DNA of 32,142 nt. Origin: Flavobacteriales bacterium. Lineage in GTDB: Bacteria > Bacteroidota > Bacteroidia > Flavobacteriales_D > Sanyastnellaceae. Positions 2,764-15,632 of the stretch are shown here, one piece after another; positions within the stretch are counted from its first letter, which is position 1; every line of letters begins with the position of its first letter. Made by a program: the position numbers and the translations under genes. The notes below the pieces were generated by a model. The model was not told the DNA's origin. It was given only the letters and a program-made list of their open reading frames with translations, and ran no database searches. Location: contig PKDZ01000083.1 in the NCBI GenBank assembly GCA_002862785.1, forward strand, positions 1-32,142, given 5' to 3'.

Positions 2764-2777
2764 GAGTTGTGCGTTGC

Positions 2778-2813
2778 ATGAACAACATCCAGTGGTGGTG
2801 GCCTTCTCGATAG
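2778..2813 (+). CDS. trpL: trp operon leader peptide (MNNIQWWWPSR)
   Basis: An 11-codon reading frame, ATG to TAG, encodes MNNIQWWWPSR, with three consecutive TGG codons at 2793-2801. It ends 79 bases before trpE and overlaps the first attenuator arm: the Pro-Ser codons CCTTCT form region 1, and the G of the TAG stop is the first base of region 2. By analogy with the enterobacterial trpL it is a sensor, not a functional protein. When tRNA-Trp is uncharged the ribosome stalls at the Trp codons and covers region 1. An in-frame upstream start exists, giving a 67-residue reading, but nothing in that extension looks protein-like. Three tandem Trp codons directly before a terminator and trpE are very unlikely by chance. 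Confidence 0.92.
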   Translation: MNNIQWWWPSR

Positions 2814-2886
2814 GGAGGTGTTCTTGTGTACCGAAGATTTTCATTCATCACACACAGTCCGCCCCCTCTCACCGAGGGGGTTTTTT
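2802..2886 (+). promoter_or_regulatory. trp attenuator: alternative hairpins 1:2, 2:3, 3:4
   Basis: Four arms can be placed by eye. Region 1, CCTTCT (2802-2807), pairs with region 2, GGGAGG (2813-2818), over a 5-base loop (six pairs, two G-U). Region 2 can instead pair with region 3, CCTCTC (2865-2870; six pairs, one G-U), and an inner TGTGT (2825-2829)/ACACA (about 2850-2856) stem can extend this antiterminator. Region 3 is also the 5' arm of the terminator. A stall at the Trp codons masks region 1, frees region 2, forms 2:3 and lets transcription continue. Normal translation allows 1:2 and then the terminator. There is no T-box sequence, and no TRAP-type (G/U)AG repeat array is apparent. 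Confidence 0.85.
2862..2886 (+). terminator. Attenuator terminator before trpE
   Basis: Perfect 7-bp stem CCCCCTC (2862-2868) / GAGGGGG (2874-2880), loop TCACC, then six Ts (2881-2886). The T-tract ends six bases before the trpE ATG at 2893, so this intrinsic terminator can only control the operon downstream. Confidence 0.93.
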
Positions 2887-9222: not shown

Positions 9223-10236
9223 ATGATTGTCCAACTCCACCACCCCACACCGCCCAACATCCTCAAGGAGGCCGAGGCCTTCCTGCTCGCACTCGATTTG
9301 AAGTGCCGGACGGTCATCACGCCGGACTCCACGCTGTTTGTCGTCTACGCCGGCCAACTTCCCGACCCGCGCCGCATCCGACAATGTCCAGGCGTCAAAG
9401 ACGTCCACCACATTTCAGACAACTTCAAACTGGTCAGCAGCCAATGGAAACAGGGGCGGTCCACCGTTCATGTCGGTGAGGTCCCCTTCGGTCCGGATGA
9501 CTTCCACATGATCATGGGCCCCTGCAGCGTCGAGAACGAGGACCAGCTCGAAGCCGTCGCGCAGTTCCTCGTGTCCCAGGGGGTGCGCATGATCCGAGGT
9601 GGGGTGTTCAAACCGCGGAGCAGCCCGTATTCCTTTCGAGGGTTGGGGCTGGAAGGGCTGGACCTGTTTCGCAACGTGGCCAATCGACATGGCCTTGGCA
9701 TCGTCACCGAGGTCATGGAAGTGGCCCAGATCGACGCCATGGCCCCCAAAGTCGACGTCTTTCAAATCGGCGCGCGCAACATGCAGAACTTCAACCTCTT
9801 GGAAGCCGTGGGGAAATCGGGCCGGCCGGTGCTGTTGAAGCGCAGCATGTCGGGCACGATCGAAGAGTTTCTCCAATGCGCCGAGTACATCTACAACGTG
9901 GGCAATGAGCGCATCCTGCTTTGCGAACGGGGCATCCGGACCTTCGAAGGGGCCTACCGCAACACCTTCGACGTCAACGCCATCTCCTACCTGCGGTCGC
10001 GGTCTCACCTGCCGGTCTTGGCCGACCCCTCTCACGGCGTGGGACTGCGCCGGCACGTGGTGGACATCGGACTGGGAGCCGTTGCAGCCGGTGCGGATGG
10101 CCTCCTCGTCGAAATCCACCCCCGGCCCGATGCCGCGGTGAGCGACCGGGACCAGACGCTGTATTTCGATCAGGCCGCCACACTCATCGAAGGCAGCCGC
10201 CAATTCAGGGCGCTGCGGTCCACCATGGCCTTGTGA
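9223..10236 (+). CDS. aroF: DAHP synthase, type I-beta with N-terminal regulatory domain
   Basis: 337 residues; condenses phosphoenolpyruvate and erythrose 4-phosphate, the entry step of the shikimate pathway. The catalytic barrel (about 85-330) has MIMGPCSVEN, GGVFKPRSSPYSF, LLKRSMSGTIEEF, CERGIRTFEG and LADPSHGVGLR. About 75 N-terminal residues form a small alpha/beta ferredoxin-like domain as in the Thermotoga-type enzyme, where it closes over the active site upon aromatic amino acid binding. As last gene of the trp operon it should be under the Trp attenuator, and it is distinct from the chorismate-mutase-fused isozyme at 12425-13453. Its stop codon directly abuts the stop of the convergent gene (TGATCA), leaving no spacer for a terminator. 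The symbol is used in the generic sense. Confidence 0.93.
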   Translation: MIVQLHHPTPPNILKEAEAFLLALDLKCRTVITPDSTLFVVYAGQLPDPRRIRQCPGVKDVHHISDNFKLVSSQWKQGRSTVHVGEVPFGPDDFHMIMGPCSVENEDQLEAVAQFLVSQGVRMIRGGVFKPRSSPYSFRGLGLEGLDLFRNVANRHGLGIVTEVMEVAQIDAMAPKVDVFQIGARNMQNFNLLEAVGKSGRPVLLKRSMSGTIEEFLQCAEYIYNVGNERILLCERGIRTFEGAYRNTFDVNAISYLRSRSHLPVLADPSHGVGLRRHVVDIGLGAVAAGADGLLVEIHPRPDAAVSDRDQTLYFDQAATLIEGSRQFRALRSTMAL

Positions 10237-12424: not shown

Positions 12425-13453
12425 TTACTTCTTCATGATGTCCTTCTGGATGCGGATGGACGCCTGGTGGACGGCGCGGTAGACGTCGGCCAGGAAGCCC
12501 TCGTGGATGCCCTGCTCCCGCCCCTTCGCGAGATTCTTCTCGAGGACGTCGCGCCACCGCTTGTTCTGCAGGATGGTCATGCCGCGCTGGTGCTTCTCCT
12601 CACCAATCCGCGCGCTGATGCCCATGCGGCGGGCGAAGAGCTCGATGATGGCGTCATCCACCATGTTGATCTCCTGGCGTAGGGAATCGAGGGCGTCATA
12701 GTCGGCCCCCTCCTCCCGGATTACCAGCCCGTCCAGGAGGGCATGGAGGGCGTCCGGCGTGAGCTGTTGAGCAGCGTCCGTCCAGGCGACATCCGGGTCC
12801 GGGTGCGTCTCGATCATGAGCCCATCGAAGGCGAGGTCCATCGCCATCTGGGCAACGTCGGCGAGAATGTCGCGGCGGCCGCAGATGTGACTGGGGTCGT
12901 TGATGAGCGGGATCTCCGGGTGGGCATTGCGGAAGTCAATGGGAATCTGCCACAGCGGGGCGTTGCGGTAGTGGTTCTGTCCGTAGACCGCGAAGCCGCG
13001 GTGGATGGCCATCAAGTTCTTGATTCCACTCCGAGCCAGCCGCTCGACGGCGCCAGACCACAGAGCGAGGTCCGGGTTCATCGGGTTTTTGACGGCCACC
13101 GGGATGTCGGTGCCCGCGAGGCAGTCCGCGAGGCGCTGGACCTGAAAGGGGTTGGACGAGGTGCGCGCACCGATCCACAGCATGTCGATTCCCGCTTTGA
13201 GTGCCTCCACCACGTGCACCTCATCGGCCACCTCGATGCAGGTCTTGAGCCCGTAGGTCTCCTTGACTTCCTTCAACCAAGGCAAACCGGTTCGGCCGAC
13301 GCCCTCGAAGGAGCCGGGCAGGGTGCGGGGCTTCCAGATGCCCGCGCGGAAATAGTCCACCTTCCGGCCGGACAGGCCTTTGGCGGTGGCGAGGACTTGC
13401 TCTCGGGACTCGGCGCTGCAGGGGCCGGCGATGAGGAGGGTGTCGTCTTTCAT
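12425..13453 (-). CDS. Bifunctional DAHP synthase / chorismate mutase (C-terminal mutase)
   Basis: 342 residues. The N-terminal type I-beta DAHP synthase barrel (about 1-240) shows LLIAGPCSAES, FRAGIWKPRTLPGSFEG, WIGARTSSNPF, VAVKNPMNPD, LINDPSHICG and MIETHPDPDVAW. The C-terminal segment (about 250-342) is an AroQ-type chorismate mutase: DALDSLRQEINMVDDAIIELFARR then a helix with EEKHQRG. The mutase-last order matches the fusion known from Porphyromonas gingivalis, where the two domains regulate each other; Bacillus-type fusions carry the mutase first. It therefore supplies both shikimate entry and chorismate to prephenate. There is no ferredoxin-like regulatory domain. It is the last gene of the pheA operon (ATGA overlap with the aminotransferase gene), with a terminator immediately after. 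Confidence 0.94.
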   Translation of the reverse strand: MKDDTLLIAGPCSAESREQVLATAKGLSGRKVDYFRAGIWKPRTLPGSFEGVGRTGLPWLKEVKETYGLKTCIEVADEVHVVEALKAGIDMLWIGARTSSNPFQVQRLADCLAGTDIPVAVKNPMNPDLALWSGAVERLARSGIKNLMAIHRGFAVYGQNHYRNAPLWQIPIDFRNAHPEIPLINDPSHICGRRDILADVAQMAMDLAFDGLMIETHPDPDVAWTDAAQQLTPDALHALLDGLVIREEGADYDALDSLRQEINMVDDAIIELFARRMGISARIGEEKHQRGMTILQNKRWRDVLEKNLAKGREQGIHEGFLADVYRAVHQASIRIQKDIMKK

Positions 13454-14637
13454 GACGGGGACAATGCTACGGATTCAATGCGTTGGTGCGCCTCCCGAAT
13501 GCGGTCGAGGGGCGTGCACAGGGACAGGCGGAGGTGCAGGTCGCCCTGGCGGCCGAAAACCTGGCCAGGCGTGAGGAAGATGTGCGCCCGGTCGAGCAGG
13601 GCGTCGGAGAGGGTGTCGCCCGTCCATCCTTCGGGCACGCGGGCCCAAAGGAACATGCCGACTTGGCCGGGACGGACGGTGCAGCCGAGGGCCTCGAGGA
13701 GGGCGCGGCCGGCCGCTTGGCGAGCGGTGTACTCGACGTTGGCCTCGTCGATGCCGTGGCTGTGCGTGAGCGCCTCGACCGCGGCATCCTGGAGCGGGCG
13801 CCACATGCCCGAGGCGAACTGGCTGGCGATGCGGAACATCGGTGCGACGGCCTGCGGGGTGCCCACGGCGAACCCGATCCGTGCGCCCGCCATGCGGTGG
13901 CCCTTGCTGAGCGAATGCAGCTCCACCGCGCCTTCAGCGCCGGGGAGCGATAGCAGGCTGAACGGTCGGCCCGGATTGAGGATGCGCGCGTAGGGGTTGT
14001 CGTGAACGACGAGGACGCCCCGCGCTTTCGCCCAAGCGACGACGGCCGTGAGGCGGTCAGGATTCGGCGCCTCGCCGGTGGGCATGTGGGGATAGTTGAG
14101 CCACAGGAGGCGAATGGGGCGGCCCTGTGCTTCCGCCTCGGCGGCGAGGGCCTCGAGCGCGGCGGGCTCGGGGTGGTGGCCGTTGGCCTCGGTCAGGGCG
14201 TACGGCACCGGGTGGCCGCCGGCGAGGCGGGTGGCCGAGGTGTAAGTCGGGTAGCCGGGGTCGGGCACGAGGGCCGCATTGCCCGGATCAAGGTGGGCGA
14301 GCGAGAGGAAGCCACAAGCCTCCTTGCTGCCGAGCAGTGGGACGATGCCCTCCACCGGCACCTCCACGCCAAAATCGCGGCGCAGGTGGTCAGCCATGGC
14401 CGCGGTCAACTCGGGAATGCCGCGGTAGGGTTGGTAACGGAAGCCCCCCTCCTCTCCTGCCCCGCGGCGCACGGCGTCGATGACGCCGTCGGCGGGTGTC
14501 AGGTCGGGACTGCCCACGCCGAGGTTGATGATGTCCTGCCCCTCGGCCATGCGCCGGCGGATCTCCGCCAGCTTGCCCGCGAAGTAGTACGCCGTCAGAC
14601 CAGCGGCCCGTTCCGATATGTGGACGTCGTGGTTCAT
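13450..14637 (-). CDS. Class I/II PLP-dependent aminotransferase (aromatic/prephenate pathway)
   Basis: 395 residues of fold-type I aminotransferase: INLGVGSPDLTP, the substrate loop GFRYQPYRGIPEL, DPGYPTY, NYPHMPTGE, VVHDNPYA (Asp213) and the PLP lysine Lys245 in HSLSKGHRMAG followed by ARIGFAVG. In the usual N-P-T-G box the PLP-contacting Asn is replaced by Met (HMPTG). Lying between pheA and the DAHP synthase/mutase, it most likely transaminates phenylpyruvate, 4-hydroxyphenylpyruvate or prephenate, but the substrate is inferred from context only. ATG 14637 overlaps the pheA stop (ATGA). The frame stays open far upstream through pheA, but that extension has no homology signal. Confidence 0.9.
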   Translation of the reverse strand: MNHDVHISERAAGLTAYYFAGKLAEIRRRMAEGQDIINLGVGSPDLTPADGVIDAVRRGAGEEGGFRYQPYRGIPELTAAMADHLRRDFGVEVPVEGIVPLLGSKEACGFLSLAHLDPGNAALVPDPGYPTYTSATRLAGGHPVPYALTEANGHHPEPAALEALAAEAEAQGRPIRLLWLNYPHMPTGEAPNPDRLTAVVAWAKARGVLVVHDNPYARILNPGRPFSLLSLPGAEGAVELHSLSKGHRMAGARIGFAVGTPQAVAPMFRIASQFASGMWRPLQDAAVEALTHSHGIDEANVEYTARQAAGRALLEALGCTVRPGQVGMFLWARVPEGWTGDTLSDALLDRAHIFLTPGQVFGRQGDLHLRLSLCTPLDRIREAHQRIESVALSPS

Positions 14638-15464
14638 GTGTCGCAGGTTCGATCCCGGCCATAGAGGCCGAGGGTAACGAGCCGGTCGGCATGCCCGCGC
14701 AGGGCCGCAATGCCAGCGTGGAGGCGTTCGGTCTCCGGCGCCTCGAGGTCCATCACGAACTCGTATTCGTACGGCCGGCCGGGGATGACCATGGACTCCA
14801 CCTTGGACAGGGAAATGCCGTGGTCCATGAGGCAGGACAGCGCTCCGTTCAAGCTCCCCCGCTTGTGCGGCAGGATGAGCGTGATGGTCGCCAGGTCGCC
14901 CGCTTCGGGCAGGGCTTCGTGACGGTGGGGCGTCAGGACCATGAAGCGCGTGAGGTTGGATGGGTCGTCTGCAATGTCCTCGGCGAGGCACTCCAGTCCG
15001 TATAGCTCCATCGCCCGCATGCTGGCGACGCATCCGATGCGGTCCCAGCGGTGCTCGGCGATCTGTCGGGCGACGAGGGCCGTGTCGGTGTCGTTGACCA
15101 GCCGGATGCCGGGATGGCCCCGGAAATACCCTCGGCACTGGTTGAGCGCCATGTAGTGAGAGCGCACCTCCTCGAGGTCGTCGAGGCGCACGCCGGGCAG
15201 GACGCCCAGGTTCTGCTTCACGGGCATGCGCACTTCCCCGATGATCGAGATGTCGCGCTCGGCCAGCAGCCGGAAGTTGGGCAGAATGGAGCCCGACAGG
15301 GTGTTCTCCACCGCCATCACGGCCCGGTCAAAGGCCCCTTCTTCCAAGCCGCGGACCAGCTCCGGGAAATCGTGGGCCGGACAGGGCTCCACCTCCTCTC
15401 CGAACCACCGCAGGGCGGCCTCCTCATGGAATGCCCCCCGGACACCCTGAATTCCAACTTTCAT
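14634..15464 (-). CDS. pheA: Prephenate dehydratase
   Basis: 276 residues; converts prephenate to phenylpyruvate for phenylalanine. The dehydratase domain (1-175) has GIQGVRGAFHEEAA, AVENTLSGSI and the catalytic TRF triad (172-174, SNLTRFMVL). A C-terminal ACT domain (about 185-270) has the GSLNGALSCLMDHGISLSKVES pattern and PGRPYEYEFVMD, the Phe-binding allosteric unit. There is no chorismate mutase domain; the mutase is in the third gene. ATG 15464 is used because it begins the conserved MKVGIQG; the frame is open 16 codons upstream into the attenuator. A Phe leader peptide and terminator immediately precede it. Confidence 0.95.
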   Translation of the reverse strand: MKVGIQGVRGAFHEEAALRWFGEEVEPCPAHDFPELVRGLEEGAFDRAVMAVENTLSGSILPNFRLLAERDISIIGEVRMPVKQNLGVLPGVRLDDLEEVRSHYMALNQCRGYFRGHPGIRLVNDTDTALVARQIAEHRWDRIGCVASMRAMELYGLECLAEDIADDPSNLTRFMVLTPHRHEALPEAGDLATITLILPHKRGSLNGALSCLMDHGISLSKVESMVIPGRPYEYEFVMDLEAPETERLHAGIAALRGHADRLVTLGLYGRDRTCDT

Positions 15465-15475
15465 TGCCTTCGCAC

Positions 15476-15501
15476 AAAAAAAAGGCCCGTCGTGGACGGG
15501 C
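15476..15501 (-). terminator. Attenuator terminator before pheA
   Basis: Read on the minus strand: stem GCCCGTC (15501-15495), loop CAC, stem GACGGGC (15491-15485), one C, then eight Ts (15483-15476). The T-tract ends 11 bases before the pheA ATG. There is no gene on this strand between the leader peptide and this hairpin, so it is a conditional terminator of the operon. Confidence 0.92.
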
Positions 15502-15572
15502 TCATCAATCAATATGGTGTTGCCTGTCCCGGGTCAGCCGTGATCAAAATAAAAGAAAGCAAATACCCGGCA
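15494..15572 (-). promoter_or_regulatory. phe attenuator: competing antiterminator
   Basis: On the minus strand the arm GGACAGGC (15529-15522) can pair with GCCCGTCC (15501-15494): seven of eight pairs over a 20-base loop. The second arm includes the whole 5' arm of the terminator, so the two structures exclude each other. A pre-emptor hairpin is possible from CCGGGT (15570-15565, inside the leader peptide codons) with ACCCGG (15534-15529), which abuts the antiterminator arm. A ribosome waiting at the Phe codons would cover the CCGGGT arm and free the antiterminator. The first two pairings are clear; the pre-emptor is less certain. Confidence 0.78.
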
Positions 15573-15578
15573 GCGCAT
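15534..15578 (-). CDS. pheL: phe operon leader peptide (MRCRVFAFFYFDHG)
   Basis: A 14-codon frame from ATG 15578 to TGA encodes MRCRVFAFFYFDHG, with four Phe codons (positions 6, 8, 9, 11) and one Tyr codon between them. It ends 69 bases before pheA and about 30 bases before the conditional terminator. It parallels the enterobacterial PheL, a Phe-rich sensor peptide; the Tyr codon could add sensitivity to tyrosine. TATCTTC, four bases before the ATG, is a plausible -7 element, which would make the transcript almost leaderless. The peptide itself need not have a function. Confidence 0.9.
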   Translation of the reverse strand: MRCRVFAFFYFDHG

Positions 15579-15582
15579 ACTG

Positions 15583-15589
15583 GAAGATA
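15583..15589 (-). promoter_or_regulatory. Candidate -7 element of the phe operon promoter
   Basis: TATCTTC on the minus strand, four bases before the pheL ATG and downstream of the preceding gene's terminator. It is similar to the Bacteroidota TAnnTTTG box. No clear -33 partner is visible. Confidence 0.4.
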
Positions 15590-15632
15590 CGTCGCAATTC
15601 GCGAAGTCCCGGTGCGCCGGGTTGCCCCAATG

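Follow-up and report, generated by a model that had tools for sequence, protein, structure and literature searches.

The principle of trp/phe-type attenuation is textbook knowledge. Most of the work on leader-peptide attenuation has been done in Proteobacteria. In E. coli pheL-pheA, a Phe-rich leader, alternative hairpins and a terminator precede pheA; the E. coli PheA protein is itself a chorismate mutase fusion (cf. PRK10622), and the DAHP synthases of E. coli are subject to isozyme repression. Rfam has amino-acid leader families named for Phe and Trp leaders. An abstract by Vitreschak et al. from 2004 reportedly mentions attenuators in Bacteroidetes/Chlorobi, and attenuators of the kind described here may already have been noted there. 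A pheA 5' element has also been reported before: the available part of a study on F. psychrophilum describes clues of attenuation before amino-acid operons and a conserved element 5' of pheA in this species and other Flavobacteriaceae (PMC9723704). According to the same part of that study, Bacteroidota start translation without Shine-Dalgarno sequences, the main promoter box of F. psychrophilum is TAnnTTTG at -12 to -5, and leaderless mRNAs amount to 5.5% in this species (PMC9723704). Small ORFs reminiscent of leader peptides are mentioned for B. thetaiotaomicron in the excerpted text of PMC7366714, and the excerpted text of PMC3641672 describes two leader ORFs of Salmonella mgtCBR that answer different signals, ATP and proline.

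Here we analyze a 32,142-nucleotide stretch of a Flavobacteriales genome (the window) in which a short Phe-rich ORF precedes pheA. Anatomy, a folding model and comparison with relatives support the attenuator reading, and we are highly confident that the pheA operon is controlled by ribosome-mediated transcription attenuation of the trp/phe type. The features of the locus are as follows.

15580..15589, minus strand: promoter-like TATCTTCCAG, 11 nt from its first T to the leader ATG; putative promoter by likeness to the F. psychrophilum box
15534..15578, minus strand: leader peptide ORF MRCRVFAFFYFDHG plus stop, read directly; counterparts in loci L016-L018
15565..15570, minus strand: region 1, CCGGGT, leader codons 3-5, 5' side of the 1:2 protector stem
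15522..15534, minus strand: region 2, made up of ACCCGG (partner of region 1) and the overlapping antiterminator GGACAGGC (partner of 15501-15494)
15485..15501, minus strand: regions 3:4, intrinsic terminator GCCCGTC-CAC-GACGGGC, 7 bp stem, loop of 3
15476..15483, minus strand: T8 tract of the terminator, after one C
14634..15461, minus strand: pheA, prephenate dehydratase (best E 6.3e-47, below NCBIfam curated cut-offs)
13450..14634, minus strand: PLP aminotransferase (LL-DAP aminotransferase-like), start provisional, below curated cut-offs
12425..13453, minus strand: DAHP synthase/chorismate mutase fusion, below curated cut-offs

The three enzyme genes were named by best family match. On the minus strand the MRCRVFAFFYFDHG ORF is followed by region 2, the terminator (15501-15476) and the pheA ATG at 15461, which places an intrinsic terminator between the leader ORF and the first structural gene; 14 nt separate the end of the T8 tract from this ATG. 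The first-pass annotation had proposed a 14-codon Phe-rich ORF, a strong terminator with eight T and an antiterminator arm matching the 5' arm of the terminator at seven of eight bases, and all three can be read directly from the minus strand. The ORF (15578-15534, stop codon at 15536-15534) has four Phe codons (6, 8, 9 and 11) and one Tyr codon (10), the hairpin spans 15501-15485 with T at 15483-15476, and GGACAGGC (15529-15522) is complementary at 7/8 positions to GCCCGTCC (from 15501), which comprises the terminator 5' arm and the first loop base. Beyond that earlier description, a 1:2 stem is possible between CCGGGT (15570-15565, within the leader ORF) and ACCCGG (15534-15529). The first base of ACCCGG is the final base of the leader stop codon; in the window, then, the stop codon adjoins region 2 and a protector stem is available.

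The ORF, the possible stems, the gene order, the codon bias and the spread of the layout are observed; where transcription starts, that ribosomes stall, that transcription terminates and that Phe is the signal are what we infer from them. In the resulting model, transcription would begin at the leader ATG or a little before it, with a ribosome behind the polymerase. With ample Phe-tRNA the ribosome would reach the stop codon, against region 2, and cover most of region 2; the 3:4 terminator would then form and transcription would end before pheA. With scarce Phe-tRNA the ribosome would pause within codons 6-11, where it hides region 1 but not region 2, and 2:3 would form before region 4 is made, allowing transcription of the pheA-aminotransferase-DAHP synthase/chorismate mutase operon. 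If there were no translation, 1:2 would protect the terminator.

Folding predicts this textbook attenuator switch for the window sequence. RNA up to and under the ribosome was masked, on the assumption that the footprint extends 15 nt, counted from the P-site codon's first base, and the stalled-state folds exclude 1:2 by construction; values for the complete leader are the highest pair probability of each helix. Without a ribosome, 1:2 and 3:4 are both at 1.00. For a ribosome stalled at Phe6, Phe8, Phe9, Tyr10 and Phe11, 2:3 is predicted at 0.66, 0.91, 0.97, 0.98 and 0.92, respectively, and for a ribosome at the stop codon 3:4 is at 1.00. In RNA that still lacks the 3' arm, 2:3 is partly present even without a ribosome or with one at the stop codon (0.79 each), and the terminator 5' arm is sequestered at 0.86 in the stalled state versus 0.45 at the stop (p 0.083). 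The predicted contrast is therefore graded.

Comparative data were obtained through a PheA alignment of 14 sequences, which led to 100 confirmed loci. We retained the best 80 of them, spread over Bacteroidota, Chlorobiota and a single Ignavibacteriota record; the window brings the total to 81. The sample leans to PheA proteins like that of the window, since the loci were found through two short peptide patterns. A leader-terminator unit was defined as an ORF of 10-34 codons with at least four Phe+Tyr and 20% of residues, whose stop lies at most 115 nt from a terminator, so that units were selected by aromatic content. At least one ATG leader unit was found in 60 of the 81 loci (window and best 80 of 100; 86 units in total), and a leader with terminator in 63 of the 81 when three GTG-start leaders are included. 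By our own sorting, the remaining loci comprise seven where pheA lies directly behind another gene, two cut by the contig end and nine without a leader unit (L019, L020, L021, L052, L053, L082, L083, L084 and L092).

A terminator lies near pheA in 65 of the 81 loci (window and best 80 of 100). At these 65 loci the best short ATG ORF before the terminator contains on average 3.80 Phe versus 0.83 in shuffles (4.6-fold) and 3.08 Tyr versus 0.45 (6.8-fold); the residues other than Phe and Tyr rise 1.2- to 3.0-fold, an increase that a greater abundance of ORFs than in shuffles would produce. At least four Phe were found at 39/65 loci (4.8% of shuffles) and at least four Tyr at 25/65 (1.2% of shuffles), the next residue being Gly (8/65), and 57/65 real loci have at least four Phe+Tyr versus 13.4% of shuffles. 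When a single locus was taken per 65%-identity cluster, four or more Phe were present in 16/25 and four or more Tyr in 7/25, with any other residue in at most 2/25. No other leader residue comes close to Phe and Tyr in enrichment among the relatives. Phe codons are thus more frequent than expected, as the first-pass annotation had anticipated, but the leaders of this phylum carry Phe and Tyr, not Phe only. Leader sequences vary freely between lineages; the open frame rich in aromatic codons stays.

Within the genus, a PheA match was present in 7 of 17 genomes, own included. Phe leaders were found in the window, L016, L017 and L018, and the other three loci (L019, L020 and L021) have no Phe-rich leader; a three-frame reading of L020 and L021 gave no credible leader. 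The leader predicted for relatives is therefore present in L016-L018 and at most of the 81 loci but not throughout the genus. The closest leaders are MRCRVFAFFYFDHG (window), MLYPGFGFFYFDHC (L016) and MLYPGFGFFYYDPC (L017). All three encode Phe at codons 6, 8 and 9, and codon 6 shows a synonymous TTT/TTC change; at codon 11 the window and L016 have Phe and L017 has Tyr, and codons 2-5, 7, 13 and 14 vary. Conserved Phe codons among variable other positions, the pattern proposed as a check on the leader, are thus seen in the two closest relatives. The L019 leader, MLLISSRYYLKPMIPRG, contains two Tyr and lacks Phe; its ATG lies 124 nt upstream of pheA. Among order-level loci beyond the genus, seven of eight (L008-L014) have an aromatic leader and terminator, and L015, the eighth, runs into the end of its contig.

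The predicted switch was also assessed across the units, leaving out the three GTG-start leaders. At equilibrium the window has the largest switch of the 86 units (0.89, with 0/40 shuffles as high), and L016 and L017 reach 0.26 and 0.01 despite nearly identical sequence, which marks the measure as fragile. Only 9/86 units reached 0.3 or more (0.6% of shuffles) and most stayed near zero, since at equilibrium the greater stability of the terminators prevails. After this weak result we turned to a second measure, which considers the RNA before its 3' arm exists and is closer to the co-transcriptional choice. By this measure, 5'-arm sequestration in the stalled state exceeded that at the stop by at least 0.3 in 74/86 units versus 19.8% of shuffles, and the difference had p<=0.05 in 53/86; with one locus per PheA cluster the corresponding counts were 30/33 and 22/33. 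In 55/86 units the complementarity between the segment after the aromatic codons and the terminator 5' arm had p<=0.05, namely in 24/34 single units and, at the tandem loci described below, 9/26 first and 22/26 second units; L018 fails both antiterminator tests (0.745; 0.883). Region 2 was here taken from the end of the aromatic codons, with dinucleotide shuffles. It had first been taken from the stop codon, with mononucleotide shuffles, and was redefined because long leaders carry region 2 inside the ORF; by the earlier definition p<=0.05 was reached for 2:3 in 27/87 units and for 1:2 in 31/87, the 87th unit being L019, set by hand. For the window a mutually exclusive antiterminator freed by stalling is predicted and is marginal there: next to the sequestration p of 0.083, the antiterminator pairing has p 0.085 with dinucleotide and 0.04 with mononucleotide shuffles, and the 1:2 pairing p 0.155 with mononucleotide shuffles.

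What the attenuator senses was considered in light of the aromatic metabolism of the host. Phenylalanine hydroxylase is present in the window's own genome (G000; locus L096), and no match was found there (98.5% complete) for tyrA, hisG, ilvD or homoserine dehydrogenase when leaders of other amino-acid operons were sought. Of the 15 genomes with a PheA match (own included), 14 were considered; tyrA was found in four of these and the hydroxylase in 11. Given the hydroxylase and the lack of a tyrA match, Phe probably supplies Tyr too in the host, which fits a leader dominated by Phe. The host is probably auxotrophic for several amino acids, despite its Trp and Phe operons. For the L019 genome (G009, 82% complete) neither tyrA nor phenylalanine hydroxylase was found. 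A version of the attenuator that senses not only Phe but the aromatic supply of Phe plus Tyr would agree with the Tyr enrichment across the phylum, which is about as strong as that of Phe, with the two Tyr of the L019 leader, and with the operon's DAHP synthase, which feeds both Phe and Tyr. Yet the window leader has four Phe to one Tyr, and without a tyrA match in the genome Tyr would follow Phe anyway, and we regard joint sensing as unlikely for this locus, if the most credible of the alternatives.

Far less probable is an ordinary intergenic terminator that ends leftover transcription and is accompanied by a meaningless chance ORF. Taken alone, the window leaves some room for it: an ATG ORF with at least four Phe in the right place arose in 201/5000 dinucleotide shuffles (5/5000 when at least 28% Phe was also required), the pairing p values lie near 0.08, the overall fold has a z-score of -1.41 with 19/200 shuffles equally stable, and terminator-like hairpins, four in 5 kb versus 3.3 in shuffles, are not rare here. 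L020 and L021, without a leader, point the same way. The single window case is thus only moderately improbable, suggestive and not conclusive. The earlier argument that a Trp-rich and a Phe-rich leader together are very unlikely to arise by chance is right in that both leaders are real, but its probability claim is weak for the window alone. Against a chance ORF, the upstream gene, which encodes a FISUMP-domain protein, already has its own terminator-like hairpin (about 15659-15636), the T8 terminator ends 14 nt before pheA, and the layout is common to 63/81 loci with Phe and Tyr enriched above all other residues. The chance ORF was set aside on the shuffle comparison and the per-cluster Phe/Tyr enrichment; it is the comparative data from relatives, not the window alone, that make the attenuator secure.

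A metabolite- or tRNA-binding leader (riboswitch or T-box) controlling the terminator in place of a translated leader is the least credible account and was set aside: the F. psychrophilum pheA 5' structured element, without an Rfam match and probably an original cis element in the available part of that report (PMC9723704), would suit it, but across the whole window only a tRNA (1-74) reached the Rfam gathering score, with no match to the Phe and Trp leader families, T-box or riboswitches, and an aptamer would be expected to keep its bases, whereas here it is the aromatic-codon frame that stays. Plasmid-borne copies were also set aside, a blastn search of 15440-15620 against a plasmid collection only having given no match.

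The window itself has one attenuator unit. Two complete Phe/Tyr leader-terminator units before pheA were found at 26/81 loci (window and best 80 of 100), that is, 26 of the 63 bearing a leader and terminator.

Tandem loci: L022-L027, L029-L035, L043, L046, L049, L057, L063, L066-L068, L073-L075, L077, L088

They fall into 10/29 PheA clusters, in records named Bacteroidales, Flavobacteriales, Pontibacter, Saprospiraceae and Chlorobiota, and on the PheA tree the tandem label needs eight changes, at least five of them forced by well-supported branches. The second leader ATG lies 15-40 nt behind the terminator 1 stem in 25/26 loci and the chosen ATG is inside the stem in one. Within 45 nt upstream of the leader, the TAnnTTTG box occurs at 17/34 single loci (1.0 expected from shuffles); at the tandem loci it precedes the first leader in 8/26 (0.9 expected) and the second in 0/26 (0.7 expected). 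Since the box precedes first and single leaders and no second leader, tandem loci likely have one promoter and two checkpoints, with the box undetected in most first leaders. If serial attenuators act in this way, two similar probabilities would multiply to give the read-through, and the response would be steeper. In a close group of loci (L027, L029, L031 and L036), L036 has the first unit only, which suggests a recent loss of the second attenuator. A literature search, conducted mostly outside subscription journals, recognised no description of tandem Phe/Tyr leaders in Bacteroidota or of their spread.

The window also contains the Trp-rich leader with which the Phe leader had been paired in the first-pass annotation.

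2769..2813, plus strand: Trp leader (M)RCMNNIQWWWPSR plus stop, probable GTG start; ATG alternative at 2778
2861..2886, plus strand: trp attenuator terminator before trpE (ATG 2893)

The gene at 2893 is trpE-like (best E 8.1e-104, below the curated cut-off). This partner leader is borne out by the window and every other full-length trpE-like locus examined: 7/7 (window, L114-L119) have a leader with two to three adjacent Trp codons and a terminator, these seven being part of 26 matches of which the rest are shorter and more distant. There are two DAHP synthases in the window, one at 9223-10236 on the plus strand after the trp genes and the mutase fusion at 12425-13453 on the minus strand in the phe operon; each sits in an operon with its own leader.

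The Trp and Phe leaders share an upstream element. TATCTTNNAG occurs three times in the window, before the Trp leader (2757-2766, plus), before the Phe leader (15589-15580, minus) and 15 nt before a GTG (32006-31997, minus), and three copies were reached in 0/100 shuffles. Counted from its first T, the element stands 11 nt before the start of the Phe leaders of the window, L016 and L017 and 12 nt before that of the Trp leaders of the window (GTG), L114 and L115; at L019 the ATG follows after 13 nt, and the motif is missing from L018. A sigma-70-type promoter was sought at the locus and none was found. If the F. psychrophilum spacing holds, transcription would start at the leader start codon within a base, and both leader peptides would probably be near-leaderless. 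A leaderless leader would be unusual, given that leaderless mRNAs are put at 5.5% in the available part of the F. psychrophilum study (PMC9723704). Taking these results together, we tentatively propose, at somewhat less than even confidence, that Phe/Tyr attenuation before pheA is old and widespread in Bacteroidota/Chlorobiota, that many lineages (26/81 loci; 10/29 clusters) carry two attenuators in series behind one promoter, and that the window and its close relatives have a single leader that is leaderless to within about one base, like the Trp leader.

The Phe leader resembles the Trp-type leaders of the window and relatives in its short ORF, adjacent cognate codons and T-tract terminator, with TATCTTNNAG shared in the window; it differs from the window's Trp leader in having Phe in place of Trp, and the trp operon has the separate DAHP synthase (9223-10236, plus). 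With two DAHP synthases in operons under Trp and Phe leaders, respectively, attenuation could do the job of E. coli-style isozyme repression. Like E. coli pheL-pheA, the locus combines a Phe-rich leader, alternative hairpins and a terminator before pheA; unlike it, the leaders of this phylum mix Phe and Tyr and the window leader has no Rfam match, and the mutase is fused to DAHP synthase rather than to PheA. A further difference from E. coli is initiation without Shine-Dalgarno sequences in Bacteroidota, as given in the available part of PMC9723704, and attenuation logic would extend across another phylum, one that initiates translation in this way. The F. psychrophilum pheA 5' element concerns the same phylum and the same gene; in its available part that report contains no Phe/Tyr codon analysis, tandem arrangement or reach beyond Flavobacteriaceae (PMC9723704). 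The less expected parts of the present system are the serial double attenuators, the Phe and Tyr content and the probable near-leaderless start. In having two leader ORFs in series before one operon, the relatives, though not the single-unit window, are like Salmonella mgtCBR as described in the excerpted text of PMC3641672; unlike mgtCBR, both units carry codons of the same kind, Phe and Tyr.
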